This document shows positions 4,303-34,689 of a stretch of 34,835 bases of DNA, in pieces. The first letter of the stretch is position 1. Every line of letters starts with the position of its first letter. The notes beneath the pieces are model-generated. The model was not told the DNA's origin and did no database searches. It was given only the letters and a program-made list of their open reading frames with translations. Origin of the DNA: Acidobacteriota bacterium. GTDB lineage: Bacteria > Actinomycetota > Acidimicrobiia > Spongiisociales > UBA11373. The stretch covers positions 1 to 34,835 of the forward strand of contig JACZWZ010000010.1 of NCBI GenBank assembly GCA_022571885.1, read 5' to 3'. The position numbers and the translations under genes are program-made.

Positions 4303-6114
4303 ATGATTCGCTTCGGGATTTCCACGCTCCCGCCGGATGATGATGATGCCGGGTTCTTGGACCGGCTCGTCGAACGCGGCCACGGTGCGGTCGAGCTGCC
4401 GTTCGTAAAGGGGTTCCCGTGGAAAGAGAGGCGATGTCGGCAGTTCGGGGAGCTGGCTGCCGAGCGAGGGGTCGTGGTCTCCATCCACGCTCCGTATTTC
4501 GCAATCCTCACCAGCGACGATCCGGACAAGTCGAAGAAGACCCTTTCGGCTCTGGAGCACACGATGAAGCTGGGCCACGCCCTCGGGTCCCGTGTCGTCG
4601 TCGCCCACACCGGGTACGTCAAGGGGCGGACCGCCGAAGAGCTCCACGAGTTGGTGGCTGCCTCGCTCGAGGTCATCGAACCAAAGGTTCGGCATCTCGG
4701 AGTTGCTCTCGGACTCGAAGTCGGAGGCAGCGATCGCGCCTTTGGGACTCTCGGCGATATCGCTCTTATCGCCGAGCAGTTCTCCTTTGTTCACCCCGTC
4801 GTCGATTGGGCGCACCTTCATGCGGTGTCGAACGGGGCGCTGAGGACGATCGAATCATTCGCAGGTGTGATCTCCTTTCTGCGCGACAATTTCGCCGGCT
4901 GGACGCTCGATCCCTTGCACGCCCAATTCACCGACAACCAATTCGGCTCGGCAGGAGAGATCAGGCATGTTCCCTACGGCGAGGGAACCCTTCGCATCGC
5001 ACCGCTGATCGAAGCGGCGGTGGTGGCCGGACTCCGGATGACGCTGATCTCGGAGGCCCACGAGGAGTCGAGTCACGATGCGATTCAGGCGGAGATGGAG
5101 GCGGCGTTGCGCGCAGCACGTCCCGAGCCGACCGCCGACCATCGCGTCGCGGCGTCCGGCGCCATCGAATTCCCATCTCAGGTCTTTGTCGACCCGGAAG
5201 GGGACTCATTTCCTCTCGTCGGCGGTGATCGACCGCTTCGATTGTCCAACGTGGATAAGCCGTTCTTTTCGGATGGCTACACCAAGGGCGATCTGATCAC
5301 CTACTACGGCGCAGTGGCCCCGCTGCTGCTGCCCCACCTGAAGGACAGGGCCATCGTTCTGGCTCGCTTCCCGGACGGAGCCGACGGCGAGTGGTTCTAT
5401 GAGAAACAGGCTCCGACACACACTCCCGAGTGGCTTCCAACATTCCCGCTTCCATCCGACCACCGTGGCGAGGCCATCGACTACGTGACCGCTCCCGATG
5501 CCGAGTCGCTCATGTGGATCGCCAACCTCGGTGCCATCGAGATCCACCCATGGCTGAGCAGGGTCATGGCCCCAGATCGTCCCGACTTCGCCGTCTTCGA
5601 TCTGGACCCGGCCGACGGGGCGACCTGGGACCAGGTGGTGATGGTCGCCAACCTCGTCAATGTGGTCTTGGAGAGGCTGGGATTGGCAGGCTATCCGAAG
5701 ACGTCCGGGGCGACCGGCCTCCACATCTATGTCCCGATCGAACCGGAACACGAGTACCGACGGGTCCGTCGCTTCGTCGAGGCGATCGGGAGGCTCATCA
5801 CCGGAGCCGACCCGGATTTGGCGACGATGGAGTGGGACATACCAAAGCGAGCCGGCAAGGTCTTTATCGACCACAACCAGAACGTCGGCGGCAAGACGAT
5901 CGCCTCGGTGTATTCGGTGCGACCCAGGCCGGGGGCACCGGTGTCGACGCCGCTGCTGTGGTCGGAGGTAGAAACCGTAGACCCCACAGAGTTCACCATC
6001 GCCACCGTGTGGGATCGCCTGGCTCGTCACGGAGACCTGTTCGCACCGGTCCTACGCGGTGGCCAGAGCTTGGAGCGAGCCGAAGAAGCTTTGGGCATAG
6101 CCAGTAGCGAGTAA
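4303..6114 (+). CDS. Fusion of endonuclease IV-like TIM barrel and LigD-type primase-polymerase
   Basis: The 603-residue protein joins two repair modules. Residues 1-270 form an AP-endonuclease-IV/xylose-isomerase-like barrel that keeps metal-ligand positions: His62 (IHAPYF), His102 (AHTGY), Glu139 (LEVGG), Asp168 and His171 (VDWAHLHA), His206, His222 and Glu251 (ISEAH). Residues about 290-590 are the archaeo-eukaryotic-primase-type polymerase domain of bacterial LigD: DLDP with Asp433 and Asp435, SGATGLHIYVP with His474, and Asp523 in FIDHNQN, then the RPGAPVSTP segment. All three catalytic motifs are intact. Such polymerases fill gaps and add ribonucleotides during end joining, while endonuclease IV cuts at abasic sites. 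ATG 4303 was chosen because protein-like sequence begins there; the frame is open from 3730 but the extension is not protein-like. No ligase or Ku gene lies in the window. The last codons and stop fall in a heptamer array. Confidence 0.87.
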   Translation: MIRFGISTLPPDDDDAGFLDRLVERGHGAVELPFVKGFPWKERRCRQFGELAAERGVVVSIHAPYFAILTSDDPDKSKKTLSALEHTMKLGHALGSRVVVAHTGYVKGRTAEELHELVAASLEVIEPKVRHLGVALGLEVGGSDRAFGTLGDIALIAEQFSFVHPVVDWAHLHAVSNGALRTIESFAGVISFLRDNFAGWTLDPLHAQFTDNQFGSAGEIRHVPYGEGTLRIAPLIEAAVVAGLRMTLISEAHEESSHDAIQAEMEAALRAARPEPTADHRVAASGAIEFPSQVFVDPEGDSFPLVGGDRPLRLSNVDKPFFSDGYTKGDLITYYGAVAPLLLPHLKDRAIVLARFPDGADGEWFYEKQAPTHTPEWLPTFPLPSDHRGEAIDYVTAPDAESLMWIANLGAIEIHPWLSRVMAPDRPDFAVFDLDPADGATWDQVVMVANLVNVVLERLGLAGYPKTSGATGLHIYVPIEPEHEYRRVRRFVEAIGRLITGADPDLATMEWDIPKRAGKVFIDHNQNVGGKTIASVYSVRPRPGAPVSTPLLWSEVETVDPTEFTIATVWDRLARHGDLFAPVLRGGQSLERAEEALGIASSE

Positions 6115-6178
6115 CCAGTACAGGAGTCTCGTCAGGTCAACGCACCGATTACTGGAAACCGGATACTGGATACCCGCC
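6100..6178. repeat. Heptamer array H1 (inverted arms)
   Basis: The left arm, 6100-6127, is four 7-base units such as GCCAGTA and ACCAGTA. The right arm, 6144-6178, has units such as ACTGGAT and ACCGGAT, whose reverse complement again contains ATCCAGT. The left arm overlaps the last codons and the TAA stop (6112-6114) of the fusion polymerase gene. Confidence 0.75.
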
Positions 6179-6213
6179 TCGTGCCGGCATCGTTGGAGGA
6201 ACAAGAACCTCCC

Positions 6214-6219
6214 TAACCT
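6214..6219 (+). promoter_or_regulatory. -10 box TAACCT of the ABC exporter operon
   Basis: TAACCT ends 8 bases before the GTG at 6228, with TTGGAG at 6193-6198 as a possible -35 and no Shine-Dalgarno. This fits leaderless transcription starting at or next to the start codon. Confidence 0.55.
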
Positions 6220-6227
6220 CTCTTCTC

Positions 6228-8027
6228 GTGTCCGACACCATGCCGGTCACCGCACGGGAAGTGCTCGGTGGCGGGCTTCGCATTGTTCTTCGTTTCATCA
6301 AGGCGCGCCCTTGGGCGTTTGCGTTCGCCGTCACCGGGGCCACGCTGTTTTCGGCGGCGATCATCGCCTCCTCCGTAGTGATCGGGTGGATAACCGACAC
6401 CGCGATTCTTCCGGTGCTGACGGAGGACCTGCCGGCCTCCGACAGGATCCCGGCGGTCGTTCTTGCGGTCGTTGCGGTGTCGATCTGGAAGACGGCCTCC
6501 ATCGTGCTGCGCCGCACATCGGCCGGGTGGCTGCAGTTGAGGAGCCAGCAGGATCTGCGACGCGGACTCATCCGTCATCAGATGGATCTGGAGCTGAGTT
6601 GGTTTGAGCGTCAGTCGATCGGTGATCTGCTGTCGGTCGCCGACAACGACACCCAGCGCAGCACCGACGTTCTGGCGCCGCTTCCGTTCGCCACCGGAGT
6701 ATCTCTACTGATCATCGGCACAGTGGTTCTGCTGGCGTTGCTCGATGTTTGGCTCGGGCTGGTGGCGCTCCTGGGGATGGCTCTCATCGTCTATGTCGAG
6801 GTACGGGCCGCCATGAGCCTCTACCCGTCTTGGGAGGGCATTCAGACCCAGTACGGAGTCATCGCCGGGGTCGCCCACGAGAGCTTCGATGGAGCGCTCA
6901 CGGTAAAGGCTCTGGGGCGCGAGGACTACGAGACCGAGCGGTTCCGGAAGGAATCCATCGAGCTGCGGGATCGCGTCATCTATGTGGGTATCCGCTGGGA
7001 GACCTACCGGACGATCATCGTCACGCTCATTCCGGCGGTGAGTTTGGTGATCCTGTGGGTGGGGGCGATCCGGGTCGATGCCGGAGCGATCTCCGCCGGC
7101 GACATCGTGACTTCCCTATACCTCTTGGCCCTTCTTGCCTTTCCGATCCAATTGATCGCATTTGTCCTGTTCGACCTCGCCGTAGCCATCCCTTCGTGGG
7201 AGCGGGTCGCCGCAGTCCTCGAGGCGGATGAGAGTGTCGTATACGGCGATGCTCGTGCCGCCTCCGGACTGGGGGCTGCCTCCATCGACTCCGACGAGGT
7301 CGGCTTCGGATATTCCCCGGACGAGATGGTGCTCAGCGAGGTGGTCGTCGACATACCGGCGGGCCGCACCGTGGCGGTGGTGGGACCGACCGGCTCCGGC
7401 AAGACGACGCTGACTCTGCTGATGGCAAGGCTATGGGATCCGGCGACGGGCCGGATCCTCGTCGACGGCCGCGATGTGCGCGACTTTGCTCGGTACGAGC
7501 TGTCGCGCGAGGTTGCCTATGTCGCCCAGACGGCATTCTTGTTCGACGACACCGCTCTGGGAAACATCACGATGGGCCTGGAGCTACCGATGTCTCGAGT
7601 ACACGAGGCAGCGAACGTGGCGGGAGCCCACGACTTCATCGAGGAACTCCCCGACGGTTACGACTCCCGGCTCGGTGAGCGCGGCGTTTCGCTCTCGGGT
7701 GGTCAACGGCAGCGGGTTGCGCTGGCCAGGGCGCTGGTGCGCAAGCCGCGGGTCCTGATCATGGACGATGCCACTTCGGCGGTGGATCCGTCGGTGGAGG
7801 CAGAGATCATGCGGCGGCTGCGGTCCGCCGAGCTGCCATCGACGGTCGTGATCGTTGCCTACCGACCGTCGTCTATCCGCTTGGCCGATGAGGTGATCTT
7901 CGTCGACGAAGGTCGGGTCGTTGCTCAAGGCACCCATGACGATCTGCTCGCTTCGCAGGTCGGCTATGCCCGGCTGGTGCAGGCTTACGAGAACGAGGCC
8001 GCCGCCCGGGCACGAGGTGGCGCATGA
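6228..8027 (+). CDS. ABC exporter half-transporter, degenerate-site subunit
   Basis: The 599-residue product has an N-terminal six-helix exporter domain (about 1-320) and a nucleotide-binding domain. Walker A GPTGSGKT lies near residue 386, signature LSGGQRQR near 488, and Walker B VLIMDDATSAVD near 509. The residue after Walker B is Asp instead of the catalytic Glu, and the switch histidine is replaced by Tyr (VAYRPSS near 543). This is the hallmark of the degenerate partner in heterodimeric exporters such as TM287/288 or BmrCD. The GTG start follows a TAACCT box directly. The stop overlaps the next gene by ATGA, so the two subunits are translationally coupled. Lipids, drugs or peptides are possible cargo; sequence does not decide. 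Confidence 0.88.
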   Translation: MSDTMPVTAREVLGGGLRIVLRFIKARPWAFAFAVTGATLFSAAIIASSVVIGWITDTAILPVLTEDLPASDRIPAVVLAVVAVSIWKTASIVLRRTSAGWLQLRSQQDLRRGLIRHQMDLELSWFERQSIGDLLSVADNDTQRSTDVLAPLPFATGVSLLIIGTVVLLALLDVWLGLVALLGMALIVYVEVRAAMSLYPSWEGIQTQYGVIAGVAHESFDGALTVKALGREDYETERFRKESIELRDRVIYVGIRWETYRTIIVTLIPAVSLVILWVGAIRVDAGAISAGDIVTSLYLLALLAFPIQLIAFVLFDLAVAIPSWERVAAVLEADESVVYGDARAASGLGAASIDSDEVGFGYSPDEMVLSEVVVDIPAGRTVAVVGPTGSGKTTLTLLMARLWDPATGRILVDGRDVRDFARYELSREVAYVAQTAFLFDDTALGNITMGLELPMSRVHEAANVAGAHDFIEELPDGYDSRLGERGVSLSGGQRQRVALARALVRKPRVLIMDDATSAVDPSVEAEIMRRLRSAELPSTVVIVAYRPSSIRLADEVIFVDEGRVVAQGTHDDLLASQVGYARLVQAYENEAAARARGGA

Positions 8028-9823
8028 CGACGACGGAGACTGCGTCCGACATCTCCACCTTTGCCGCGATGAGACGGGCCGCGGCCGAAGCACCCGTAAT
8101 AGTCGACCGGCTTTGGGTGGTATTGCTGCTCAACCTTGGCGGCACTGCGGTCCAGGTACTGATTCCGGTCATCGTCCAGCAGACGCTCGACAGGTACGTG
8201 ATCGGCACCGAGGGTGTCGACGTGGGCGGGGTTGCCTCCGCAGTCGGCCTGGGCGCGATTGTCGTCGTCATTGGTGGCTTCATGACTCGAATGGGTCTGG
8301 TCAGACTCGTGAAACAGGCTTCGACCGGGATCTCAGAGCTGAGAGTGGCGGTGTTCGCACACCTGTTCCGGAGATCGGTGCTCCACGTGGAGACAGAACG
8401 ACGGGGCGCACTCGTCTCCCGCGTCACATCGGACCTCACCACGCTGCAGGAGTTCCTCGAGTGGGGCGGTGTGATGTTCCTCGTCAACGGCACCCAGGTA
8501 GTTGTGTCGCTGGTCGTGATGGCGATCTATGAGTGGCGTCTGGCACTCATCGTCGTTGTGGGTGTGATGATCTACGCGGCAAACCTGTTGTGGTCGCAAC
8601 GGGTGCTCCGCCGGCGCTACGACCGGGTGCGGGAGCGTGTGGCCGACAGCCTGGCCGTCATGGGTGAGGCGATCAACGCACTCCCTGCTGTCCGGGCCCA
8701 CGGTGCGGAGCGAGTCACAATGGACCGGGTCGAGGCGAGTCTCGAGCAGCGGTTCCAGGCCGAGTTCAAGGCGGCTCATTTCGGGAACGTCCTGTTCGCC
8801 ACCTCGGAGCTCTTCTCCGCGGTGCTCACCTCTGTGGTCATCGCGGTCGGTCTGTTGATGGGTCCCCAGCAGGGGGTCACGGTTGGGGTGCTGCTGGCAT
8901 TCCTGTTCCTGGTGAACCTGCTCATCTCTCCGGTACAGATGCTGGTCGAAATACTCGACTTCGCGCAAAGTGCGGCATCGGGGCTTCGCCGCGTGGTCGG
9001 AACTCTCGACGCACCGATCGAGATCCCGGAAGCAGATGATCCGGTCGACCTCCCGTCGGGTTCTCTGGGAGTCGTGTTCGAAGAAGTCGGCTTCAAGTAC
9101 GTCGACGGCCCCGAGGTGCTGTCCGACATTTCGGTGGACGTGGCGGCCGGGTCTCGGGTGGCCATCGTCGGTGCAACCGGATCAGGGAAGACCACGTTCG
9201 CTAAATTGCTGGTGCGGCTCCTCGACCCCAATAGGGGTGTGGTTCGTATCGGTGGAGTCGATCTGCGTGAGGTGGGAAGACGGAGCCTTCGCGCCAGGGT
9301 GGCATTCGTCCCTCAGGAGGGTTTCCTGTTCAGCGGCTCCGTTGCCGACAACATTCGGTACGGGCGTCCCGATGCCGGCGACGAAGAGGTGCTGGCAGCC
9401 TGTCACGAACTCGGACTGGAAGGCTGGCTGAATCGACTTTCCGACGGTATCGACTCACCGGTAGGTGAACGCGGATCGAGCATGTCCGCCGGTGAACGGC
9501 AACTGGTGGCACTGGTACGGGCGTGGATCTCGAGTCCCGATCTCTTGTTGCTCGACGAGGCGACCTCGGCGGTCGATCCCGCCCTAGATGTGCAGTTGCG
9601 CCGGGCCATCGATCGGTTGATCGCCGGGCGGACGTCGGTGACGATCGCGCACCGGCTTGCCACCGCCGAAGCCGCCGACGATGTCCTCGTATTCGATCAG
9701 GGGCGGCTGGTCGAACGCGGATCACACGATCGGCTGGTCGCTGCCGGAGGTGTGTACTCGGGTCTGTACGCCGACTGGAGCGCGGGAACAAGCGTCGGCG
9801 GCGATGCCGCTGCCGGTCCCTAG
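8024..9823 (+). CDS. ABC exporter half-transporter, catalytic subunit
   Basis: This second 599-residue half-transporter has a six-helix membrane domain followed by a complete ATPase core: Walker A GATGSGKT near residue 383, Walker B LLLLDEATSAVD with catalytic Glu near 507, and an intact switch histidine in TIAHRLAT near 541. Its signature is the altered MSAGERQ, as expected for the half that faces the degenerate Walker motifs of the partner. Equal length and a 4-base overlap with the upstream gene indicate a heterodimer of one canonical and one non-canonical ATP site. The stop codon TAG lies inside the first heptamer of array H2. Confidence 0.9.
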   Translation: MTTTETASDISTFAAMRRAAAEAPVIVDRLWVVLLLNLGGTAVQVLIPVIVQQTLDRYVIGTEGVDVGGVASAVGLGAIVVVIGGFMTRMGLVRLVKQASTGISELRVAVFAHLFRRSVLHVETERRGALVSRVTSDLTTLQEFLEWGGVMFLVNGTQVVVSLVVMAIYEWRLALIVVVGVMIYAANLLWSQRVLRRRYDRVRERVADSLAVMGEAINALPAVRAHGAERVTMDRVEASLEQRFQAEFKAAHFGNVLFATSELFSAVLTSVVIAVGLLMGPQQGVTVGVLLAFLFLVNLLISPVQMLVEILDFAQSAASGLRRVVGTLDAPIEIPEADDPVDLPSGSLGVVFEEVGFKYVDGPEVLSDISVDVAAGSRVAIVGATGSGKTTFAKLLVRLLDPNRGVVRIGGVDLREVGRRSLRARVAFVPQEGFLFSGSVADNIRYGRPDAGDEEVLAACHELGLEGWLNRLSDGIDSPVGERGSSMSAGERQLVALVRAWISSPDLLLLDEATSAVDPALDVQLRRAIDRLIAGRTSVTIAHRLATAEAADDVLVFDQGRLVERGSHDRLVAAGGVYSGLYADWSAGTSVGGDAAAGP

Positions 9824-9892
9824 TCCTTAGTGGTTAGTCATTAGGTCAGACTGCGGAGTCCTGAGTCCCATTGGCTACTGGCTACTGGCTAC
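9820..9892. repeat. Heptamer array H2 (between convergent genes)
   Basis: The left arm, 9820-9847, has units CTAGTCC, TTAGTGG and TTAGTCA. The centre repeats GGAGTCC and TGAGTCC. The right arm, 9872-9892, is three exact TGGCTAC units. The array contains the stop codons of both neighbouring convergent genes. Confidence 0.85.
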
Positions 9893-10723
9893 TTCCCCGG
9901 GCTCTGCTCCCAGCGCCACTGCTCCACCGGTGGCGCTCCAATCGCTCCACGAACCTGGATAGAGGATCGGGTCCGGCAGGCCTGCCCGAACCATGGCGAG
10001 GGCGTTGTGGCATGCGGTCACGCCGCTGCCGCAGTAGACAACCGTGTCTCGATCGGCATCGACTCCCAGACGGGCGAATCTCTCCCGCAGCTGCTCGGCG
10101 CCGAGGAAGGTCTCGTCCTCGGCCAAGTTGTCCAGCATCGAGGCGCTCAGCGCAGTCGGGATGTGTCCTGCCACCGGATCGATCGGCTCCTCCTCGCCTC
10201 GGTACCGCGCCGGTTCCCGGGCGTCGAGCAGTGTCACCGCCCCCAAGCGGCTGCTCAGTTCATCCCGATCGAGTTGCCGAGTGGCCGACCGCCGAACGGT
10301 CATCGTTGCCGGGTCGTGAGTCGGCAGGTCGGTCTCGATGGCTTGGCCGGCGGATTGCCAGGCGGCGATGCCACCGTCGAGTACACGGACACCGTCGTGT
10401 CCGATGTCGCGCAACATCCACCAAAGGCGGGCAGCGGTTGCTCCGCCACGGTCGTCGTAGGCGACGATCAGCTGCTCTTGACCGAATCCGATCCCTTCCA
10501 TCGTCGCGGCGAAGGCCTGTCGCGTCGGAAGCGGGTGTCGACCGGGGCCGTTGGAGTCGCTGAGATGCACCTCCAGGTTCACGTATACGGCTTCCGGTAT
10601 GTGGCCGGCGTGATAGGCAAAATGCCCGTGTGTGGGCTGGTCGAGATACCACCGCACGTCGGCGATTCCGATCGGGCCGTCGTAGGCGATCAGCTCATCG
10701 ACGCTGATTATCGGGTCGGTCAT
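9875..10723 (-). CDS. Two-domain sulfurtransferase (thiosulfate / 3-mercaptopyruvate)
   Basis: The 282-residue protein has two rhodanese domains. The N-terminal one is inactive (Asp90-Asp91 where a Cys would stand), and the C-terminal one has the active-site loop YCGSGVTA with Cys231. CGSGVT is typical of 3-mercaptopyruvate and related sulfurtransferases, which pass sulfane sulfur to cyanide or thiols in the cytoplasm. The domain boundary is near residue 145. ATG 10723 was chosen because its ATGA overlaps the stop of the upstream gene; the longer open frame to 11146 is shadow. The C-terminus GEVASSQ and the TAG stop are encoded by array H2, so the last residues may have been altered by the array. 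Confidence 0.88.
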   Translation of the reverse strand: MTDPIISVDELIAYDGPIGIADVRWYLDQPTHGHFAYHAGHIPEAVYVNLEVHLSDSNGPGRHPLPTRQAFAATMEGIGFGQEQLIVAYDDRGGATAARLWWMLRDIGHDGVRVLDGGIAAWQSAGQAIETDLPTHDPATMTVRRSATRQLDRDELSSRLGAVTLLDAREPARYRGEEEPIDPVAGHIPTALSASMLDNLAEDETFLGAEQLRERFARLGVDADRDTVVYCGSGVTACHNALAMVRAGLPDPILYPGSWSDWSATGGAVALGAEPGEVASSQ

Positions 10724-11232: not shown

Positions 11233-11238
11233 ACCGGA

Positions 11239-11244
11239 AGCGTA
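11239..11244 (-). promoter_or_regulatory. -10 box TACGCT of the hypothetical/sulfurtransferase operon
   Basis: On the minus strand, TACGCT ends six bases before the GTG at 11232 with no Shine-Dalgarno between, which is the leaderless arrangement seen elsewhere in this window. Confidence 0.5.
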
Positions 11245-11650
11245 CCCAGTGGTCGATGGTACTGATCGTCACCGCATCTCTCCGGCCCTTGGCCGCCCGC
11301 TGTTGCCTTCTCCTCGACGCGCTTTCGACTGCGCCTTCGTCGGGCTGTGCCAGATGGCCGACGGTTACGAGATACGTGGACGCCATTGGACGACAGACCT
11401 CTATTCCGCCCGAGCCGTCGGCAGGTGGAGGACGTACCAGATCGCCCGCTGCGATCGCCGCCATGAGTACCTGGAGAACCGTCGGTGCGATGACTCACCC
11501 GATGGAGTAGGTGAACGTCGCGGTCACGGCGACGACGGCGACGATCTCCGACTGCGGGGGAAGTGGTCATGGTCACTGAGCGAATGTACGGTCGCGTGTT
11601 TTGGACGGGGAATTGGGCGAGTTACCGGTTCCGGCGCCGCGTCCCCGAAC
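11245..11650. other. 406-base stretch without a supported gene
   Basis: All six frames are either short or shadow-like. One minus-strand frame around 11512-11560 reads like a hydrophobic peptide (IVAVVAVTATFTYSIG) ending in TGA, and the frame continues openly after it. This may be decayed coding sequence, but no gene is supported. Confidence 0.4.
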
Positions 11651-11655
11651 TTGCT

Positions 11656-11713
11656 GTTCGCAATTCGCAAGAAAAGGTCGGACTATTGCTTGCGTATTGC
11701 GTGTTGCGTATTT
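11656..11713. repeat. Heptamer array H3 with CGGACTAT core
   Basis: The left part contains GCAATTC and GCAAGAA units, and the right part three units TTGCGTA, TTGCGTG and TTGCGTA at 11690-11710. The central 30 bases (11666-11695) match 16192-16221 of array H6 at 25 positions. The array lies just upstream of the exonuclease promoter. Confidence 0.8.
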
Positions 11714-11742
11714 CTCCCAATACCGCTTCCGCCGTTCCCAGG

Positions 11743-11748: not shown

Positions 11749-11754
11749 CCTCCC

Positions 11755-12708: not shown

Positions 12709-12855
12709 TGGGAATCGGTGGCGGCCTGTTGCCGCGACACCGGGCGTTGCGGGGGGAATTTTCCCTCTGCCCGTCTCCCGAATGGTGTTGCTGGAGCTGT
12801 GGTGGCGTCTCAAAGCTATCGGGACTTGATTCGAGAAACCGGGAATCGGGAAGGG
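12709..12855. repeat. Heptamer array H4 (degenerate)
   Basis: Between 12821 and 12855 the sequence divides into 7-base units GATTCGA, GAAACCG, GGAATCG and GGAAGGG. A related GGGAATCGG occurs at 12710-12718. It fills much of the 266-base gap between the exonuclease and the convergent FAD-enzyme gene. This is the weakest of the arrays. Confidence 0.5.
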
Positions 12856-14294: not shown

Positions 14295-14300
14295 GAGGAA

Positions 14301-14344: not shown

Positions 14345-14414
14345 GGTTAGGAGTTAGGCGTTAGGAAGCGCCCATTCTACCTAATACCTAACACCTAATC
14401 CCTAACACCTAGAT
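14345..14414. repeat. Heptamer array H5, clean inverted arms
   Basis: The left arm, 14345-14365, is GGTTAGG, AGTTAGG, CGTTAGG. The right arm, 14380-14414, is five units of the CCTAATA/CCTAACA type, the complement of the left. A 14-base unpaired centre (14366-14379) separates them. This is the clearest palindromic case. Confidence 0.9.
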
Positions 14415-16185: not shown

Positions 16186-16240
16186 GCAATACGCAAGACA
16201 AGAGCGGACTATGTCTTGCGTCTTGCGAATTGCAAGACAC
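16186..16240. repeat. Heptamer array H6 with CGGACTAT core
   Basis: The left arm is GCAATAC, GCAAGAC; the right arm, 16213-16240, is GTCTTGC, GTCTTGC, GAATTGC, AAGACAC, complementary to the left. The core matches array H3 in sequence and orientation. It lies between convergent LLM and modC genes. Confidence 0.85.
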
Positions 16241-18098: not shown

Positions 18099-18874
18099 GG
18101 TGTGGTGAATCCATGCGCTGTGAGAATCTGTTGTCCTTCCGCCGACAGGACGAAGGCTACGAAATCTTGCGCACCGCTGAGGTTGGGAGCGTCGGCAACC
18201 ACTGCGATCAGGTAGTCGGTAACAGGATCGAGGGCGTCGGGGATCTCGATTCCGATCACCTTATCGCTTGCGAGGACGTCGGTCAGGTAGACGATCCCAG
18301 CGTCGAGTTCGCCCACTTCGAGTTTGGTCAGCAGCGACCGCACGTCCGGCTCACTGGTGTCGATCGCAGGCTCGATTCCGGCGTCGGTGAGGATGTCGCG
18401 GGCAAGGACTCCACACGGCACGGCTTCGGCGCACAGTCCGATCAGCAGCGTCTCGTCGGCGAAGTCCTCGATCCCGACCACCCCGGCGGGGTTGCCGTGG
18501 GGGACTCCGATTTGAAGCCGGTTGCCGGCAAAGATCGCCGGCTCATCGGCGAGGCCGGCATCCATCACCATCTGCATGACCGCCGGATTCGCCGACGCAA
18601 AAACATCGACCGGCGCCCCTCCAAGAATCTGCTCCCGCAGCAGCGAGCTACCGGCCACATTGAGCAGGATGTCTATTCCTGGGTGCTTCTCCTCGAATGC
18701 TTGCTCGATGTCGGCAAAGGCGTTGGTGAGCGACGAAGCCGCCGATACCAGCACCTGGTTCGCAGAAGCAGAACCGCCACATGCCGAGGCGAGCAGCAGG
18801 AGAACCAAAACAATGGAGGCCGCCCGTCCCGAAACTGCTTGCTGCCTGTTGCAAGCTGCCTGTTGCAAGCTCAC
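18095..18874 (-). CDS. modA: Molybdate-binding lipoprotein ModA
   Basis: The 259-residue precursor has a hydrophobic signal (SIVLVLLLLASAC) with a lipobox Cys near residue 32, then the ModA core: VSAASSLTNAFADIEQAF, VNVAGSS-type loop (NVAGSSLLREQI), GGAPVDVFASAN and a YLTDVLAS segment. It captures molybdate outside the membrane for ModBC. The GTG start directly follows the TAG of the AMIN-like gene with no gap. Residues 2-12 (SLQQAACNRQQ) are encoded by heptamer array H7, so the n-region of the signal is array-derived. Confidence 0.92.
   Translation of the reverse strand: MSLQQAACNRQQAVSGRAASIVLVLLLLASACGGSASANQVLVSAASSLTNAFADIEQAFEEKHPGIDILLNVAGSSLLREQILGGAPVDVFASANPAVMQMVMDAGLADEPAIFAGNRLQIGVPHGNPAGVVGIEDFADETLLIGLCAEAVPCGVLARDILTDAGIEPAIDTSEPDVRSLLTKLEVGELDAGIVYLTDVLASDKVIGIEIPDALDPVTDYLIAVVADAPNLSGAQDFVAFVLSAEGQQILTAHGFTTP
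18842..18869. repeat. Heptamer array H7 inside the modA start
   Basis: The 14-base unit CTGCCTGTTGCAAG occurs twice in tandem (18842-18855, 18856-18869). It splits into the heptamers CTGCCTG and TTGCAAG. A partial third copy precedes it. It encodes the first residues of ModA on the minus strand. Confidence 0.85.
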
Positions 18875-19585: not shown

Positions 19586-19647
19586 CAGAGTCAGCAAGTC
19601 CGGAGTCCCGAGTCGGGGAGTCTTGAGCTCTGCGCTCCCGACTCCTG
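19586..19647. repeat. Heptamer array H8 (7/8-base spacing)
   Basis: AGTC recurs with ends at 19592, 19600, 19607, 19614 and 19622 (units such as CGGAGTC and CCGAGTC). A complementary stretch GCTCCCGACTCC follows near 19633-19645. It occupies the divergent gap between the AMIN-like and ABC-2 ATPase genes. Confidence 0.75.
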
Positions 19648-22181: not shown

Positions 22182-24716
22182 ATGTTCAAGATTGCTCTCA
22201 GGAGCGTCCTGCTACACAAGTTGCGACTGACGCTCACGGCGGTGGCGATTGTGCTCGGGGTTGCCTTCGTGTCGGGGACATTTGTGTTCACCGACAGCAT
22301 CAAGGCCTCGTTCGATGATCTCTTCTCCGACGTCAATGCACAGGTCGACTTCTTCGTGAGGGGTACCTCCGAGTTTGGATCGACCGCGGCCACCTTGGAT
22401 GAGTCGATCGTCGAAGCGGTTCGTGCGGTAGACGGACTCGAGACCGTCGTCCCCTCCGTGGACGGAATCGCCCAACTCATCGACAAGGAAGGTGAACCGA
22501 TTGGAGGAGCCGGGCCACCGACTCTCGGGTTCTCGTACCTCCCCGAGGGAGAGGGAATCTCCCCGATCGATGTGCGCCAGGGAGATAGTTGGCCCACCGA
22601 ACCGGGCCAGGTTGTCATCGACACGTTTGCCGCTGAGGCGAACGACCTCAGTGTGGGCGATGTCATCGACATAATTACCCCGGTCGGTGTTGAGCCCTTC
22701 GAGATCGTGGGCATCGCGACCTTCGGCGACGCCGACAACCTGCTGGGGGCCACCCTGGCCGTGTTCCAGTTCGAAGAGGCTCAGCGGATCTTCGACATGG
22801 AGGGCCAGGTTTCATCGATCTCGCTGACGGCCGTCGACCGGGTCGACAAGCTGCTGTTGCAGGCGTCGATCGCCGACCTGTTGCCCTCTCAAGTCGAGAT
22901 TGTCACCGGTGCTGACCAGACAGATGACGATCTGAGCGAAATCGACGAGGGGATTGGGTTCATCACCACGATCCTGCTCGTGATCGCCGGCGTGGCGGTG
23001 TTTGTCGGAGCATTCATCATCCAGAACACGTTCCGGATCATCGTGGCCCAGCGGACCAGAGAACTGGCGATGCTTCGCGCCGTAGGGGCCACCGGGCGTC
23101 AGGTGACCTTCATGGTTGGGATCGAAGCGCTGGTGGTGGCCGTGGTCGCCTCGGTGATCGGAATCGGAGTCGGCGTCCTGTTTGCAGTCGGCATCAAGGG
23201 TGCATTCACTGCCTTCGGCTTTGGCTTCCCCGGCGGACCTCTCACAATCAAGGCGCGGACGATCGTCGTCGGCATGGCGGTCGGTGTTGTGGTGACCATG
23301 ATTTCGGCGCTGCTTCCGGCGCGGAAGGCGTCGAAGATCCCACCGATTGCGGCTCTGCGGGATATTGACACCAGTGCTCGGGACCTGTCGCGGAGGCTGA
23401 CTGCCGGCATCATCGTCACCGGTCTCGGAGTGGCGCTGTTGGCCGTGGGGTTGGTGCTCGATCTCGAGAATGCCATCTCCTTTGTGGGCTTTGGGGCGCT
23501 GCTGACATTCGTCGGGGTATCGGTCCTTGCTCCGCTGTTTGCCAGGACCTTTGCTCGAACCGCCGGCAGGCCACTGCCTCGCTTCGCCGGCATCGTCGGA
23601 CGACTGGCTCAGGAGAACGTGATGCGCAAGCCACGTCGCACCGCGGCAACTGCGTCGTCGCTGATGATCGGGGTGGCTCTGGTCAGTGTGATCGCCGTGT
23701 TCTCCGCCTCGGCCAAGTCGGGCGTGGCCGCAGTCTTTGAGGATGACTTCACGACTGACTTTCAGGTTGCTCTCGACGGATTCAGCGACCCTCGGTTCAC
23801 CGGCTTGTCGCCGGCGCTGACGGACGATTTGAGACAGCTGGATGAGCTGTCGGTAGTCGCCCGGTTGCGGATTGGGGAGTACCGGATGACCGACGAGACT
23901 GCCGAGAAGTTCCTGCTGGGCGTGGATGGCGGAATCGAACAGGTGGTGAGGCTCGAGATCGTCGACGGATCTATCGACCGCTTCACCGATGGCTCTGCTC
24001 TGCTCTTCGAGGACGAAGCGAACCGGCTCGGCCTCGGTGCCGGAGACTCGATGACGATCGAAGTGCCATCCGGAGCCACCGTACAGCTCGAGATTGCTGC
24101 CGTTTTTGCCGGTGATGCGCTGGAAGCGCGGCTCCTGGTGACCGTGCCGACCTACGAGGAGCACATCACATTCCGGCTCGATCGGTTCGTCCTCGCTCTC
24201 AAGGCAGATGATGTCTCGGAGGCTGAAGCTCGAGCGGCAGTAGACGGGGTGGCTGAGTCCTACCCGAACGCCAAGGTGACCAACACCGAGGAGCTCATCG
24301 GCGACATAGAGCAGCAGATCGACAACCTGCTGAACCTGCTGGTGGTGCTGCTCGGCTTTGCGATCATCATCGCTCTGCTCGGCATCGTGAACACGCTGGT
24401 GCTGTCCGTGTCGGAGCGAAAGCGCGAGATCGGGTTGCTGCGGGCTATCGGGACATCTCGCAAACAGGTCAAGCAGATGATCCGATGGGAGTCGCTGCTG
24501 ATCGCCGTCTTCGGCGGTGTGTTGGGTCTGGTCGTGGGCACCGCCCTGGGGGTCGCCACCGTCACCGCGGTGGGCCGCGGCCTCAAGCTCACCATCCCGG
24601 GCGGCCAACTGATCATCTACCTGGTCGCCGCTGGCGTTGGTGGGATGATTGCGGCGGTTCCTCCGTCACGAGCCGCAGCCAAGACGAATGTGCTGGAGGC
24701 GATCGGATACGAGTAG
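22182..24716 (+). CDS. FtsX/MacB-family ABC permease, double FtsX domain
   Basis: The 844-residue membrane protein has a MacB-like periplasmic region after the first helix (about 40-240) and a first FtsX domain with three helices (about 265-390; RTRELAMLRAVGATGRQV). Two further helices, a second external region (about 510-680) and a second FtsX domain (SERKREIGLLRAIGTSRKQ) follow. About ten helices in all is usual for actinobacterial members acting in lipoprotein, lipid or peptide handling at the cell surface. It forms a unit with the LolD-like ATPase. The TAG stop at 24714-24716 touches array H9 directly. Confidence 0.9.
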   Translation: MFKIALRSVLLHKLRLTLTAVAIVLGVAFVSGTFVFTDSIKASFDDLFSDVNAQVDFFVRGTSEFGSTAATLDESIVEAVRAVDGLETVVPSVDGIAQLIDKEGEPIGGAGPPTLGFSYLPEGEGISPIDVRQGDSWPTEPGQVVIDTFAAEANDLSVGDVIDIITPVGVEPFEIVGIATFGDADNLLGATLAVFQFEEAQRIFDMEGQVSSISLTAVDRVDKLLLQASIADLLPSQVEIVTGADQTDDDLSEIDEGIGFITTILLVIAGVAVFVGAFIIQNTFRIIVAQRTRELAMLRAVGATGRQVTFMVGIEALVVAVVASVIGIGVGVLFAVGIKGAFTAFGFGFPGGPLTIKARTIVVGMAVGVVVTMISALLPARKASKIPPIAALRDIDTSARDLSRRLTAGIIVTGLGVALLAVGLVLDLENAISFVGFGALLTFVGVSVLAPLFARTFARTAGRPLPRFAGIVGRLAQENVMRKPRRTAATASSLMIGVALVSVIAVFSASAKSGVAAVFEDDFTTDFQVALDGFSDPRFTGLSPALTDDLRQLDELSVVARLRIGEYRMTDETAEKFLLGVDGGIEQVVRLEIVDGSIDRFTDGSALLFEDEANRLGLGAGDSMTIEVPSGATVQLEIAAVFAGDALEARLLVTVPTYEEHITFRLDRFVLALKADDVSEAEARAAVDGVAESYPNAKVTNTEELIGDIEQQIDNLLNLLVVLLGFAIIIALLGIVNTLVLSVSERKREIGLLRAIGTSRKQVKQMIRWESLLIAVFGGVLGLVVGTALGVATVTAVGRGLKLTIPGGQLIIYLVAAGVGGMIAAVPPSRAAAKTNVLEAIGYE

Positions 24717-24751
24717 GAGTACTGAGTAGTCAGCTATCAGTAGTCAGTACT
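24717..24751. repeat. Heptamer array H9, left terminus of the four-helix-bundle element
   Basis: Five consecutive 7-base units (GAGTACT, GAGTAGT, CAGCTAT, CAGTAGT, CAGTACT) begin at the base after the FtsX-gene stop. In reverse orientation the same word family forms array H10 at the other end of the enclosed gene. The tail of the four-helix-bundle reading frame runs into it. Confidence 0.9.
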
Positions 24752-25091
24752 CGACGGCGAAGAGCAATGAGCATGGCCCGGATTTCGCCGCACTCCTGCT
24801 GGAGATTGCTTGCGGTTCGGCCGAGCAGCAGGCTGAGATCTGAAGCCAGTAGTAGCTCGTACTCCAATTCGGCCGTCGACGCGATAGCGTTGTCGAGGAA
24901 GCGGGCGTAATCGGGTCGCGTACGACGGCTGCTCCCTCCGCGATGTTCGTTTGGATGCCGACGGCTGCACGACGGGTCTGCGACTGGAGTCCATAGACCT
25001 CGGCTTTGGGGTAGCCAGCAGTGGCGTCATGCACAGAGCGGGTCAGCCGATGGGCGCGATTCCAGACACGCAGTTCTCGGAACGGACGCAC
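24730..25091 (-). pseudogene. Four-helix-bundle protein (S23/IVP, Avd-like fold), frameshifted
   Basis: From GTG 25091 the frame reads MRPFRELRVWNRAHRLTRSV, then YGLQSQTRRAAVGIQTNIAEG, the unmistakable first half of the four-helix-bundle family found as an intervening-sequence protein in 23S rRNA genes and, in related form, as the Avd accessory of diversity-generating retroelements. After GAA at about 24925 the family sequence continues in another frame (PDYARFLDNAIAS, then AELEYELLLASDL) to TGA at 24730-24732. A single lost base near 24921-24928 explains the break. Restored, it has about 120 residues, the usual length. Either the gene is dead or the assembly has an indel. Inverted heptamer arrays flank it on both sides. 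Known members are small, basic and thought to bind nucleic acid or protein. Confidence 0.85.
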
Positions 25092-25129
25092 TCAAACACT
25101 GTGAGATCAATCGAGGTCTCCGACAAGGT

Positions 25130-25164
25130 CTTGACTGAGTACTTAATACTGAGTACTGAATACT
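25130..25164. repeat. Heptamer array H10, right terminus of the four-helix-bundle element
   Basis: Five 7-base units (CTTGACT, GAGTACT, TAATACT, GAGTACT, GAATACT) end one base before the minus-strand stop codon of the sulfotransferase-like gene. Read on the minus strand, the array begins GAGTATT after TAG, mirroring the GAGTACT after TAG at the left end. Confidence 0.9.
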
Positions 25165-25165
25165 C

Positions 25166-25885
25166 CTAGATCGCCCACTCTTTCAATCGTTCGAACAATG
25201 GCAGGCACTCGGTCAGCAGCGGCTGCAGGTGGGCCGGGACTGGTTCGTCCTTCTCCCGGTAAGCGGCGAAACCGGTAGATCGATGCACGTTGTCGTACCA
25301 GTGGGGTGCCCACACGCCGTCTTCGGGCTTTGGTCCTTCATCCCAGCTGAGCATCGCCGGATCCCAATCGAGGCCGAGGCGCTTGCACACGGTCGTCAGA
25401 ACCCCTTCTGGATCGAGCAGTAGGCGCTTCGACTCGATGACGATCGGGGAGTCGCCCGACTCGAGGATTCGGTCCAGCATCGACACTTGCATCGGGAGGC
25501 CGGTGCCCTCGACCGTCGGGTTCGGGACCTGATTGATCAGCGACAAAAGCATCTGGCGTGGATCGCGGGTCAGGAGGATGTTCTCCATCTGTCCGAGGAA
25601 CGACGTGTCGAGCTCGATGAGGTGATGGGCCATGTGCTTGAAGAACCTCACCGGTGTCTCTGCGGGACCCAGCAGCAGAGTGCGTACCACCGATTCGCCG
25701 TCGGTGTCTTGGGACCTGATGACGTCCTGGAGGGCCGGGTGTTCAACGCCGGCGCGGCATAAGTAGTGGGCGTAAAGGGGTTCGTCGACAACACTGGTGT
25801 CGCTCCGTTCACGGAAGGCGTACATGACGGCGGTCGAGACGTTGCGTGGTCCCGACCAGAGGTTGATCCGCTTGACGTCATCCAT
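25166..25885 (-). CDS. Sulfotransferase-like P-loop protein coupled to the aminotransferase
   Basis: The 239-residue protein begins with a PAPS-binding-like loop INLWSGPRNVSTAVMYAF and has a ILLTRDPRQMLLSL strand resembling the 3'-phosphate contact of sulfotransferases, followed by helical C-terminal sequence. True sulfotransferase activity is unproven for this branch; many entries carry misleading branched-chain-aminotransferase names because of fusions or gene neighbourhood. ATG 25885 overlaps the upstream aminotransferase stop by eight bases, so the two are co-translated. The stop TAG borders array H10. Confidence 0.8.
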   Translation of the reverse strand: MDDVKRINLWSGPRNVSTAVMYAFRERSDTSVVDEPLYAHYLCRAGVEHPALQDVIRSQDTDGESVVRTLLLGPAETPVRFFKHMAHHLIELDTSFLGQMENILLTRDPRQMLLSLINQVPNPTVEGTGLPMQVSMLDRILESGDSPIVIESKRLLLDPEGVLTTVCKRLGLDWDPAMLSWDEGPKPEDGVWAPHWYDNVHRSTGFAAYREKDEPVPAHLQPLLTECLPLFERLKEWAI

Positions 25886-30772: not shown

Positions 30773-30800
30773 AGGAGTCTCCAGTCTCCAGTCTGGAACC
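30773..30800. repeat. Heptamer array H11
   Basis: Four 7-base units AGGAGTC, TCCAGTC, TCCAGTC and TGGAACC lie in the divergent gap between the cyclase and SRAP genes. Confidence 0.75.
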
Positions 30801-31521: not shown

Positions 31522-31606
31522 GGCTGGAAGACACCCCCCATGCCCCTCGTCGGTGCGTTCCTCGGTAATTCCCCCAAGAGGGGGGGAAGGATAAGAAGAA
31601 GAAATA

Positions 31607-31708
31607 TCACTCCCCCCTTGTGTGTCGGGTTGCGCGATAGGGCCGACGGTTCTCTTCTGAATACTCTCCCGTTGTGGGGGAGTCAACGGCCAAAGGCCGT
31701 TGGAGGGG
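31607..31708 (+). repeat. GC-rich palindromic element, copy B1
   Basis: The element contains a C-run, CCGACGGTT at 31643-31651, ACTCTCCC at 31663-31670, a GGGGGAGTCAA block and a closing hairpin CAACGGCC-AAA-GGCCGTTG (31685-31702) followed by GGAGGGG. The same order of motifs recurs at 34695-34800. A further C-run/G-run hairpin lies just upstream near 31571-31586. Confidence 0.75.
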
Positions 31709-31717
31709 TGTCCCGCC

Positions 31718-32602
31718 TTACTTCCTCTCGAACGGGACGCTGTGTTGCCAGTCGGCGAGCAGGGTGCGCAGGGCCGTCACGAAGGACAGGGGTTGGTCGA
31801 GGATGAGGTGGTGGTGGGCTTCGGGGATCGTCACCACCGGGGATACCCGTCCCATCAGCTCGTACATGTATTCGGCCGTGTCCTGAGGTACCACCACGCT
31901 GTGCTCGCCGCGCAGCATCGCCACCCGGCACTTGACCGACGCCAACTGCTCGTTCATCGGCACCATGGTGTGGGTGAACAGGTTGGCGTCGAACTTCCAG
32001 GTCCAACCCTCGTCGGTCTCATGTAGTGAGTGCCTTGCCACGTGATCGATGATCCAGGGGTCCGCCTCCGGCTGGGGTGGGATGAGATGGAAGTGGGTGA
32101 GGGCAGATTTCAGATCGGGGTAGACGCCGGGGGATCGGAAGGCGCGACCGCGGGTTCCCTCTTCAGACTCGGGGTCGGGGCGGCGCACCGGAGAGTCCAC
32201 GATGATGGCCCCGGCGAGGAGTTCTCCGAAGGTGGCGGCCGTCTGGATGGCCACCAGGCCTCCCAGGGAGTGGCCGACGATCACCGGAGGCCGGTCGAAG
32301 CCGACGGTCTCACAGACGGAGACGATCTCTCGCGACCACGCTTCGTGGGAGTAGCGCCGGCGTCTTCCACTATCGCCGTGTCCGCTGAGGTCGAGGGCGG
32401 TGACGTGGTATTGCTGGGAGAACATTGGTGCCAGGTGGCTCCACCAGCGGGCGTGGGCGGCCCCACCGTGGACCAGGACCAGCCCGGGACTGCCGACATC
32501 TCCCCACTCGAGGACGTTGATCGAGGTGCCCTCGACCTCGTGGGTCGACTGGCGCGGTTCTTCGGCAAGAGCCCTCTTGAACCAGCCGGGGGGTTCGGTC
32601 AT
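31718..32602 (-). CDS. Alpha/beta-fold hydrolase
   Basis: The 294-residue enzyme has the oxyanion motif LVLVHGGAAHARWW, the nucleophile elbow GHSLGG with Ser112, an acidic residue in LRGEHSVV and His in IPEAHHHLILDQP. Esterases, epoxide hydrolases and C-C hydrolases all share this plan; no specific substrate can be read. ATG 32602 was chosen because its ATGA overlaps the stop of the metallo-hydrolase gene. The longer reading from 32626 is possible but unneeded. Confidence 0.88.
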   Translation of the reverse strand: MTEPPGWFKRALAEEPRQSTHEVEGTSINVLEWGDVGSPGLVLVHGGAAHARWWSHLAPMFSQQYHVTALDLSGHGDSGRRRRYSHEAWSREIVSVCETVGFDRPPVIVGHSLGGLVAIQTAATFGELLAGAIIVDSPVRRPDPESEEGTRGRAFRSPGVYPDLKSALTHFHLIPPQPEADPWIIDHVARHSLHETDEGWTWKFDANLFTHTMVPMNEQLASVKCRVAMLRGEHSVVVPQDTAEYMYELMGRVSPVVTIPEAHHHLILDQPLSFVTALRTLLADWQHSVPFERK

Positions 32603-33684: not shown

Positions 33685-33690
33685 TACCCT
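33685..33690 (+). promoter_or_regulatory. -10 box TACCCT of the antiporter gene
   Basis: TACCCT ends seven bases before GTG 33698, with no Shine-Dalgarno between. A GTCCCG/CGGGAC-closed stem near 33592-33628 lies upstream of the box and therefore probably outside the mRNA. Confidence 0.5.
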
Positions 33691-33697
33691 CGTCCGG

Positions 33698-34636
33698 GTG
33701 ATCGTGTCTCTCCTCTTCCTTGCCGCCGGCTTCGCCCTGCTCATCCTGTCGGCCGACCGCTTCGTGCTGGCAGCGTCGCGGGTTTCGGCGGCACTCGGCC
33801 TGTCCCCGATCCTGGTCGGTGCTCTCGTCATCGGACTCGGCACCTCGGCTCCGGAGATGCTGGTGTCGGCAATCGCCGCGTCGCAGGGTGAGATAGATCT
33901 CGCACTGGGCAATGTCGTTGGATCTAACGTGGCCAATCTCACATTGGTGCTGGGGTCCACGGCACTGGTGACGCCGATCATCTCTCGCTTGCAGACGATC
34001 AAACGCGAAGGTGCCCTGATGCTTCTCTCGATGGGGGTCTTCACCCTGCTGATGTGGAACCTCGATCTCAACCGGGTGGAAGCTTTCGGACTACTGGTCG
34101 GGATGATCGTGGCGGCGCTGCTGCTCATCCTTTGGTCCAGGTCGGATTTGCGGACCGGACGAGCCTCCGTGACCGACTCTGAAGCCGGCGAATGGGGAGG
34201 CCGGGTGGGAAAGGAGAGCCTCCTGGGTATCGGGATGCTCTCACTGACCCTGGTCGGGGCCGACCTGCTGGTACGCGGCGCCACAGGTCTGACGAACGAT
34301 CTCGGAGTCTCCAGCGCGTTCGTTGGTCTGGTGATCGTCTCGGTTGGGACGTCATTGCCAGAACTTGCCACGGCGTTGGCGGCGGCGCGACGGGGTCAGA
34401 CCGACTTGGTGTTGGGCAATGTGTTGGGCTCCAATATGTTCAACACGCTTGCCGTGGCCGGTATCGCCGGTCTCGTGGGTCCCGGTGTGGTGGACGAGAC
34501 GTTCCACAACGCTTTGATTCTCATGATGGGAGCCGGCGTGATGGCCGGCGTATTCAGCTGGCGGAGCCCGGTACGGCGTTCGGAGGGGGCGATGCTGGTG
34601 GTGTTGTTCCTCGTCTTCGTGACGCTGGCGGTGTGA
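33698..34636 (+). CDS. Calcium/sodium antiporter (CaCA family, YrbG-like)
   Basis: The 312-residue membrane protein has ten predicted helices in two inverted halves, each with an alpha-repeat: LGTSAPEMLVSAIAA then LGNVVGSNVANL in the first, and VGTSLPELATALAAA then LGNVLGSNMFNTL in the second. The paired acidic residues (PEM, PEL) bind the ion. It exchanges Ca2+ for Na+ or H+ at the plasma membrane. GTG 33698 follows a TACCCT box. No partner gene is adjacent. Confidence 0.92.
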   Translation: MIVSLLFLAAGFALLILSADRFVLAASRVSAALGLSPILVGALVIGLGTSAPEMLVSAIAASQGEIDLALGNVVGSNVANLTLVLGSTALVTPIISRLQTIKREGALMLLSMGVFTLLMWNLDLNRVEAFGLLVGMIVAALLLILWSRSDLRTGRASVTDSEAGEWGGRVGKESLLGIGMLSLTLVGADLLVRGATGLTNDLGVSSAFVGLVIVSVGTSLPELATALAAARRGQTDLVLGNVLGSNMFNTLAVAGIAGLVGPGVVDETFHNALILMMGAGVMAGVFSWRSPVRRSEGAMLVVLFLVFVTLAV

Positions 34637-34640
34637 GGAT

Positions 34641-34689
34641 TAGTCGCTAGTCGTTAGCGATTAGCAAATAGAAAATAGCAAATAGCAAG
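34641..34689. repeat. Heptamer array H12, seven units
   Basis: Seven consecutive units all begin TAG: TAGTCGC, TAGTCGT, TAGCGAT, TAGCAAA, TAGAAAA, TAGCAAA, TAGCAAG. It starts four bases after the antiporter stop. The gradual drift from unit to unit shows stepwise copying with change. No inverted second arm was found before element B2 begins. Confidence 0.92.

Follow-up and report, generated by a model that had tools for sequence, protein, structure and literature searches.

Seven-base arrays of an acidimicrobial genome as probable ends of IVP elements

The DNA considered here (the window) is the whole 34,835-nucleotide stretch of contig JACZWZ010000010.1 in assembly GCA_022571885.1, deposited as Acidobacteriota bacterium and placed by GTDB in the Acidimicrobiia. 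It contains twelve intergenic blocks of degenerate seven-base units (H1 to H12), and we describe their relation to genes of the 23S_rRNA_IVP family (PF05635), one of which was found between H9 and H10 by running Pfam on 20 window proteins and had been overlooked in the original prediction, made from the letters of the window. Blocks were scored by their matches out of 21 at lag 7, each against 300 dinucleotide shuffles (p floor 1/301), and the features at this locus are as follows.

24714..25168, no strand: IVP element, a decayed IVP gene between inverted heptamer arrays (inverted 35-bp ends; comparison of the site with the congener G001)
24714..24752, no strand: H9, array at one end of the IVP element, words GAGTACT/GAGTAGT, itself a small palindrome (lag 7 14/21, p 0.003; inverted p 0.007)
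24766..25079, minus strand: IVP gene (PF05635, 23S rRNA IVP / S23 / four-helix bundle), decayed (Pfam pieces 24927-25079 and 24766-24936; three-frame reading)
25131..25168, no strand: H10, opposite terminal array of the IVP element (lag 7 16/21, p 0.003)

The gene is read as decayed because it is split between two frames. The ends of the element are 35 bp long and inverted, with TAG as first letters and CTA as last, and H9 and H10 pair as two ends of one element (24714-24748 with 25134-25168; p 0.016, the floor for 60 shuffles). The element is sited between two protein genes and not inside 23S rRNA, and the window has no Rfam match. In G001, which aligns to the window in blocks of 68-84% identity, the host genes on either side are separated by 35 bp, compared with 449 bp here. 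Four IVP genes were detected in this genome (G000), and all four are bracketed by arrays with reverse-complementary words, namely CCAGTCN/ACTGGNG, ATGCCCG/CGGGTGT, TTAGGNN/CCTAATN and the GAGTACT pair of the window. IVP genes are under purifying selection: of the 25 closest pairs listed, 18 have a dN/dS of 0.03-0.15, while dS was unusable in the other 7 and often above 1. The structure of one homologue, XCC0516, has been solved (2gsc).

Arrays at IVP loci across phyla

IVP loci came from two sources, (i) 59 genomes of the group including this one, 25 of which have a match (29 of the 49 matches outside this genome were analysed), and (ii) 80 loci of many phyla, chosen as the best of at least 586 that were retrieved with patterns from six IVPs and therefore weighted towards typical IVPs. 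Two of the 113 loci were dropped for a short flank, and the other 111, among which the four loci of this genome that prompted the idea are included and one locus is counted twice (L045, the same as L103), were compared at equal geometry with 634 control positions taken from the same contigs as the 80 broad loci. Period 7 is present on the left at 78 IVP loci, on the right at 83, on both sides at 68 and on either side at 93, as against 4 (both sides) and 55 (either side) of the 634 controls. Period 8 is present on either side at 12 of the 111, and one or the other period on either side at 102.

These counts bear on the view that plain polymerase slippage makes heptamers everywhere and that their association with IVP genes is incidental. 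Among long simple repeats, heptamers have been reported as the commonest class in most of the genomes examined, and slippage at 7 nt has been proposed as their source (Mrazek et al., 2007, cited in PMC4679880; papers given by PMC number are cited for parts of their text); changes of two units in a single arm, as between L297 and L302, do exist. However, arrays with inverted, matching words stand on both sides at 68 of 111 IVP loci versus 4 of 634 controls, and arrays are scarce both in the congener and in most of the sampled relatives without an IVP gene, which makes slippage a highly improbable explanation.

The two ends of an element match each other better than they match the ends of other elements, and there is no terminal inverted repeat of fixed sequence. 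At 90 of the 111 loci, the inverted match of an element's own arms is above the 95th percentile for arms swapped between loci, and at 66 it is above the 99th, which, with significant inverted arms in five of the twelve window blocks, bears out the original suggestion that arms are often paired. A period could be assigned at 85 of the 113 loci (7 in 76, 8 in 9; 28 were left without assignment), with different words from locus to locus, and no other period was called among lags 4-12. The proposal of a fixed period with a free sequence has thus held up well, and element ends look like structures defined by period more than by sequence; that the machinery measures length and not sequence would be an inference from this.

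The same termini are found at IVP elements of many phyla, including those of cyanobacterial plasmids, so the phenomenon is not special to an actinobacterium. All ten cyanobacterial plasmid loci analysed score at least 15/21 at lag 7 on both sides (at least three are near-copies of others), and 23 of the 25 plasmid records with an IVP match are cyanobacterial; about 17 of the 25 are Nostocales. A single query of phage records returned no IVP match. In a Luteimonas-family set, period 7 is found on either side at 26 of 29 loci and on both at 21, with own arms above the 95th percentile of swapped arms at 11 and above the 99th at 3; own and swapped arms are less distinct in this family because its words are G-rich variants that are much alike. 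Words differ, by eye, among the five IVP genes of one Terriglobia genome, and a Geobacter genome has four IVP matches over the cut-off plus a weak one. The placement of the present organism among actinobacteria was itself sound, L045 (from a same-order genome, G050) agreeing exactly in 55 of 55 sixty-mers with L103 of CP070681, labelled 'Acidimicrobiia bacterium'. Two records named Brucella, which we take to be former Ochrobactrum, carry IVP elements with period-8 ends, GGGAGTAG and GGGAGTAA (L072 and L134), and a contig labelled Methanophagales archaeon (L110), for which a binning error is possible, has an IVP gene whose right array is of period 8.

Arms have a median of 4.7 units, and the right array begins 8 bp (median) past the IVP stop (57 period-7 loci), entering the end of the IVP reading frame at some Luteimonas-family loci; elements of about 420-505 bp hold an IVP gene and nothing else. 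Sites just past a stop codon are preferred, mostly with the element co-directional with the upstream gene (84 of 105 loci). In this genome, 38 of 276 genes have an array no more than 60 bp past their stop, and 15 of 262 have one no more than 67 bp ahead of their start. The stop is TAG in 18 of the 38 array-followed genes versus 55 of 238 others (p 0.003), and at IVP loci in 27 of 59 versus 103 of 369 (p 0.009), a preference that might reflect stop codons provided by the arrays themselves. IVP elements lie directly 5' of genes for the carbamoyl-phosphate synthase large chain and biotin carboxylase at L273 and L289 (by eye also at L267 and L270), perhaps inside operons for multi-subunit enzymes.

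As for the origin of the word, units show a modest bias towards an AG anchor (broad set, 53 left arms: 34 versus an expectation of 26.3; order set, 25 left arms: 14 versus 8.5). GAGTAG adjoins H9 in both congeners and arrays are in phase with stop codons (by eye), which is suggestive of a word derived from the target. The IVP genes of L297 and L298 are 76.5% alike, lie at unrelated cyanobacterial sites and have a common AGTCAGR-type word, and it is therefore more likely that the word travels with the element than that it is copied from the target. The arrays can very probably be identified as the termini of IVP elements.

Empty sites and turnover

These elements are insertions, and their empty sites can be found. 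At one Nostoc junction, two open reading frames (ORFs) lie 3 bp apart in pNsp_c, whereas both pC052_D and pNsp_a have a 420-bp stretch containing an IVP element between them; flank identities are 94.3% and 99.6%, and 93.0% and 91.4%. At a second, it is pNsp_c that has 505 bp with another IVP, while the ORFs of pC052_D overlap by one base (flanks 99.6% and 91.5% identical).

Full element, short hairpin and empty site interchange at one and the same location in Flavobacterium, the junction between a 3-hydroxyacyl-CoA dehydrogenase/hydratase gene and a thiolase gene (identified with Pfam), which was readable in 28 of 30 genomes (no start was found in L237, and L250 has an N gap). Seventeen of the 28 have a short hairpin, five an IVP element, three are empty (3-5 bp), two hold another palindromic repeat and one a Y1 transposase gene (L235, L252 and L260 being the loci with other inserts). 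Lag 7 reaches at least 14/21 and is the best lag in all 17 hairpins, and it is joint best in four of the five IVP alleles. The upstream stop is TAG in 21 of the 22 array-bearing alleles and TAA in the three empty ones (the species compared are related). On the thiolase gene tree the states are interleaved, requiring nine changes for a minimum of two, with no more clustering than in shuffles (L250 was scored as empty, and L235, L252 and L260 as hairpins). Two sister alleles, L241 and L244, differ by exactly one 7-mer in each arm, a paired change that fits a fold-back intermediate. In L260, the Y1 (IS200-like) transposase gene, at 352-813, comes right after an apparent IVP gene start (by eye).

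This last allele is what favours mobilisation in trans by a known enzyme, either a reverse transcriptase or a Y1 (IS200/RAYT) transposase. However, no reverse transcriptase (PF00078) was matched in this genome, which is 92% complete and the one searched for it, and no Y1 transposase (PF01797), the one transposase family searched, in any of the 59 group genomes, the present and the array-rich ones included. Both enzymes were rejected on these grounds, and we regard such mobilisation as very unlikely.

Short arrays without an IVP gene

The remaining ten blocks of the window have no IVP gene within them; such hairpins encode no S23/IVP protein, unlike the four IVP elements of this genome.

6096..6177, no strand: H1, hairpin array with CCAGTAN / TACTGGN arms (lag 7 14/21; inverted p 0.007; also called by Tandem Repeats Finder, TRF)
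9816..9893, no strand: H2, TTAGTNN array facing a TGGCTAC array (lag 7 17/21; inverted p 0.99; TRF)
11656..11712, no strand: H3, hairpin array TTCGCAA / TTGCGTA (lag 7 p 0.003; inverted p 0.003)
12770..12855, no strand: H4, degenerate TTCCCGN-type pair, weak (lag 7 13/21, p 0.027; inverted p 0.20)
14345..14411, no strand: H5, hairpin array GTTAGGN / CCTAANN (lag 7 18/21; inverted p 0.003)
16186..16238, no strand: H6, hairpin array GCAAGAC / GTCTTGC (lag 7 p 0.007; inverted p 0.003)
18835..18871, no strand: H7, array with the 14-mer GCTGCCTGTTGCAA (2 x 7) (lag 7 14/21, p 0.003; inverted p 0.17; TRF)
19586..19645, no strand: H8, degenerate GAGTC array, weak (lag 7 13/21, p 0.017; inverted p 0.08)
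30773..30797, no strand: H11, CCAGTCT array, second arm not significant (lag 7 15/21; inverted p 0.69; TRF)
34638..34688, no strand: H12, TAGTCGN / TAGCAAA array directly past a stop codon (lag 7 18/21; inverted p 0.14)

Ten of the twelve blocks reach at least 14/21 at lag 7 (p 0.003-0.007), so the heptameric nature claimed for all of them is clear in ten and weak in H4 and H8. Within-block inverted arms beat shuffles at p < 0.01 in H1, H3, H5, H6 and H9 and are not significant in the other seven (those of H10, p 0.48, among them). H1 overlaps the stop of a LigD-like gene; the TTAGTNN array of H2 begins inside a TAG stop codon, and its two arms are non-complementary by Watson-Crick score. The gene at 4303-6114 joins an AP endonuclease 2 / xylose isomerase-like barrel to a LigD-type primase-polymerase domain. 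A second palindromic repeat family, CTCCCC...GGGGGGAGTCAATCGGC..GCCGATTGGTGGGG, was noticed by eye at 34700-34820 and 31530-31720 of the window, in L005 and L009 and in a stretch of G001; it is common to this genome and the congener and sometimes adjoins heptamer arrays.

Beyond the window, the genome was sampled in 20 further stretches, bringing the total to 316 kb of 2.79 Mb (two stretches are all N, and genes were called there with a simple ORF caller). Intergenic DNA of this sample has 55 lag-7 matches of at least 14/21, compared with a mean of 1.95 and a maximum of 5 in 20 shuffles, which upholds the claim that such arrays exceed chance; counts at lags 5, 6, 8, 9, 10, 11, 12 and 13 are 0, 5, 2, 11, 3, 6, 4 and 0, lag 14 has 42, and the 263 kb of coding DNA have 15 lag-7 matches. 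A stricter cut-off leaves 43 matches in 311 kb, or about 380 per genome by extrapolation. Loci do differ in word as first described, but the families CCAGTAN, CCAGTCN, TTAGGNN, TTAGTCN, TTCCCGN and others recur, by eye, at many of them, so that one word of its own for each locus was too strong a claim. Arrays also differ between the two congeners: at nine of 11 array sites the intergenic DNA of G001 falls below 14/21 at lag 7, the H1 site scores 14, and the H12 site holds a different array, (CCAATTG)n at 21/21, downstream of the same gene.

Might the arrays act in mRNA, as terminators or as hairpins at the 3' end, and be retained because they benefit the host? Their greater frequency after stops than before starts would suit this, and, among five blocks folded as RNA, H3 (z -2.1), H5 (-4.4) and H6 (-3.5) are more stable than shuffles, whereas H1 is little more so (-1.0) and H2 is not (+0.4). 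However, a scan of window positions 6000-25900 for a GC stem followed by a T tract found 11 candidates for 11.1 expected, none at an array, and terminators were rejected. Selection on a stem in RNA was likewise rejected: on the IVP-sense strand, there is no excess of G.U over A.C mismatches (105 versus 169 in 94 elements, 26 versus 38 in 29 more), and a conserved mRNA stem is therefore not the simplest reading. The Flavobacterium hairpins agree (5 versus 24, n=16), while short arrays of this genome lean the opposite way without significance (21 versus 13, n=17). Arrays are, moreover, found between functionally linked genes, such as the dehydrogenase/hydratase and thiolase genes above, and most comparable Xanthomonas repeats are transcribed (PMC4692102). 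A role for the host at the mRNA level is, for these reasons, most improbable.

A role as binding sites of a regulator, as proposed for the heptamers and octamers of Geobacter (PMC2700814) and for TAACTGA repeats (PMC4679880), seems hardly more credible, since the word is free, varying from locus to locus and, at a given site, from species to species, and the arrays of the window are mostly absent from the congener.

A different question is which came first. Hairpin arrays might arise on their own, by replication slippage and fold-back, with the IVP gene a passenger that homes into their loops. Short arrays are indeed more numerous than IVP elements (the 43 matches in 311 kb against four IVP genes genome-wide), short hairpins prevail at the Flavobacterium site (17/28), one genome (G019) has arrays and no detected IVP gene, and the rRNA intervening sequence (IVS) of Coxiella also lies within a helix, helix 45 (PMC4990558). 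Against this, the empty Nostoc allele is 3 bp with no hairpin, and IVP genes are under purifying selection. Array density (matches of at least 16/21 per 100 kb; medians from the sorted list, the all-N genome G014 left out) also differs, ranging from 0 to 26.7 with a median of 10.9 in 15 genomes with an IVP gene and from 0 to 9.1 with a median of 0 in 16 without (p 2e-4, uncorrected for kinship); 11 of these 16 have no array match and four have 1.1-2.7 per 100 kb. Within the present genus, the values are 13.8 for G000 and 1.1 for G001. We consider an origin in hairpins unlikely, and the reading of arrays as the paired termini of IVP elements together with hairpin derivatives that lack the IVP gene, which have period, paired arms and a site in common with the full elements, is in full the best explanation and a probable one.

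Known systems, mechanism and meaning

The closest known relatives are the 23S rRNA IVSs of Coxiella, Leptospira and Brucella. Like the present elements, they encode a PF05635 protein, are of similar size and have inverted ends that close a loop around the gene. That of Coxiella, of 428 nt, has two to three tandem GACAGAT heptamers before its S23 gene, varying between strains (PMC4990558). These IVSs lie within rRNA, from which RNase III removes them. The elements described here, by contrast, lie between protein genes, are bounded at each end by heptamer arrays that match one another, in a word that varies per element, and have IVP-less relatives genome-wide.

Heptamers have, on the other hand, been described separately in several other bacteria. 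In Xanthomonas and Nostoc, the repeats GGGAATC / GGGGA(C/T)T are intergenic, mostly of four units and close to or overlapping stop codons, two Xanthomonas genomes having 70 and 75 inverted pairs, and heptamers of Calothrix are mentioned too (PMC4692102); these are presented as G-quadruplex formers of one word type, whereas here the unit-number bias is also seen in words without G-tracts. The word 'intervening' does not occur in the main text of that paper, nor IVP in its passages. In Geobacter metallireducens, four-heptamer elements and paired octamer/heptamer sites were proposed to be regulatory RNAs or regulator sites, and the likeness extends to several word classes per genome, periods of 7 and 8 and opposite-strand pairs (PMC2700814, whose main text lacks 'S23' and 'four-helix'). 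The TAACTGA repeats of Beggiatoaceae are intergenic heptamers as well but of a single fixed word, mostly 5' of start codons and with one inverted case (PMC4679880). In the parts of these papers cited, none of the heptamers of Xanthomonas/Nostoc, Geobacter, Beggiatoaceae or the Coxiella IVS is tied to IVP outside rRNA, and no title or abstract linking IVP/S23 genes to flanking heptamer arrays outside rRNA was found (in a search that did not extend to subscription papers or preprints).

Among mobile and repeated DNA more generally, insertion sequences and miniature inverted-repeat transposable elements likewise leave empty sites, the difference being that the terminal inverted repeats here have no fixed sequence, and the REP/RAYT system is set apart by the lack of PF01797 in all 59 group genomes. 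Short tandemly repeated repetitive sequences (STRRs) made of heptamers are known from cyanobacteria, with one or a few fixed words per genome. The likeness is in tandem, intergenic 7-mers beyond chance, and cyanobacterial plasmids carry IVP genes with heptamer ends; the difference is in the many word families per genome seen here (by eye).

How such elements might work can be sketched. A full element consists of (i) an array of some four to five seven-base (sometimes eight-base) units, (ii) a spacer of tens of bp, (iii) an IVP/S23 gene of about 120 codons and (iv) at the far end, an inverted array of the same word adjoining or overlapping the end of the IVP gene. Recognition of its ends would depend on spacing more than on word, and the simplest agent would be a ring of IVP with one unit per subunit, S23p of X. 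campestris having been described as a toroidal homopentamer (PMC4990558). This ring may act on a single-stranded or hairpin form that host enzymes copy, and, in a fold-back (hairpin) intermediate, one arm might template the other, with the consequence that word and unit number could change while the arms stay complementary. Short hairpins would be copies deleted for IVP, either still mobilised or merely persisting. The ring and fold-back scheme is speculative, and we would not expect it to prove right as it stands.

Several observations weigh against the explanation as a whole. To our knowledge, IVP has no catalytic activity; S23 proteins are described as having a solved structure and 'no known function' (PMC4990558). 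No transposition was seen and no mobilising enzyme identified, with reverse transcriptase searched in this genome and Y1 transposase in 59. Target-site duplication amounts to a possible TTCTA at one Nostoc site and an imperfect one at the other (by eye). In L297 and L302, which have the same insertion, a two-unit difference affects the left arm alone, as fits slippage. Neither period is present at nine of the 111 loci, two Geobacter loci (L225 and L232) have no array at 15/21, and direct similarity of the flanks exceeds the 99th percentile of the null at 19 of 110 loci. G019 has 9.1 arrays per 100 kb with no IVP gene, G033 and G044 have an IVP gene and 0, and the words of short arrays are only slightly closer to the IVP words of their own genome (p 0.019, 29 non-independent arms). 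Period 8, finally, requires seven changes on the IVP tree (built without L026 and L051; ten period-8 rows, L110 labelled by hand), although it is more clustered than in shuffles (2/500 as low, to which near-copies contribute). IVP sequence is therefore not a simple determinant of period, and the idea that the IVP clade sets it was rejected.

The arrays are nonetheless real, more widespread than earlier thought and explained as IVP-element ends and their hairpin derivatives, while the account of how these ends are made and moved is conditional. The broadest form of this reading is a class of mobile elements that crosses phyla (one archaeal-labelled contig included), with ends set by a period of 7 or 8 and by arm complementarity instead of a sequence, and with no recombinase of its own, relying on IVP/S23 as a nucleic-acid-binding ring together with host replication or repair. 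The heptamer excess would then largely be debris and non-autonomous copies, and rRNA IVSs would be those copies whose insertion site was in 23S rRNA. We see this as a genuine possibility, towards which we remain slightly sceptical. It offers another reading of the earlier proposals of G-quadruplex motifs and of global-regulator sites. If true, it would give the widespread and unexplained heptamer repeats a single origin and the S23 protein a testable role, in elements whose ends would be recognised by spacing more than by sequence.

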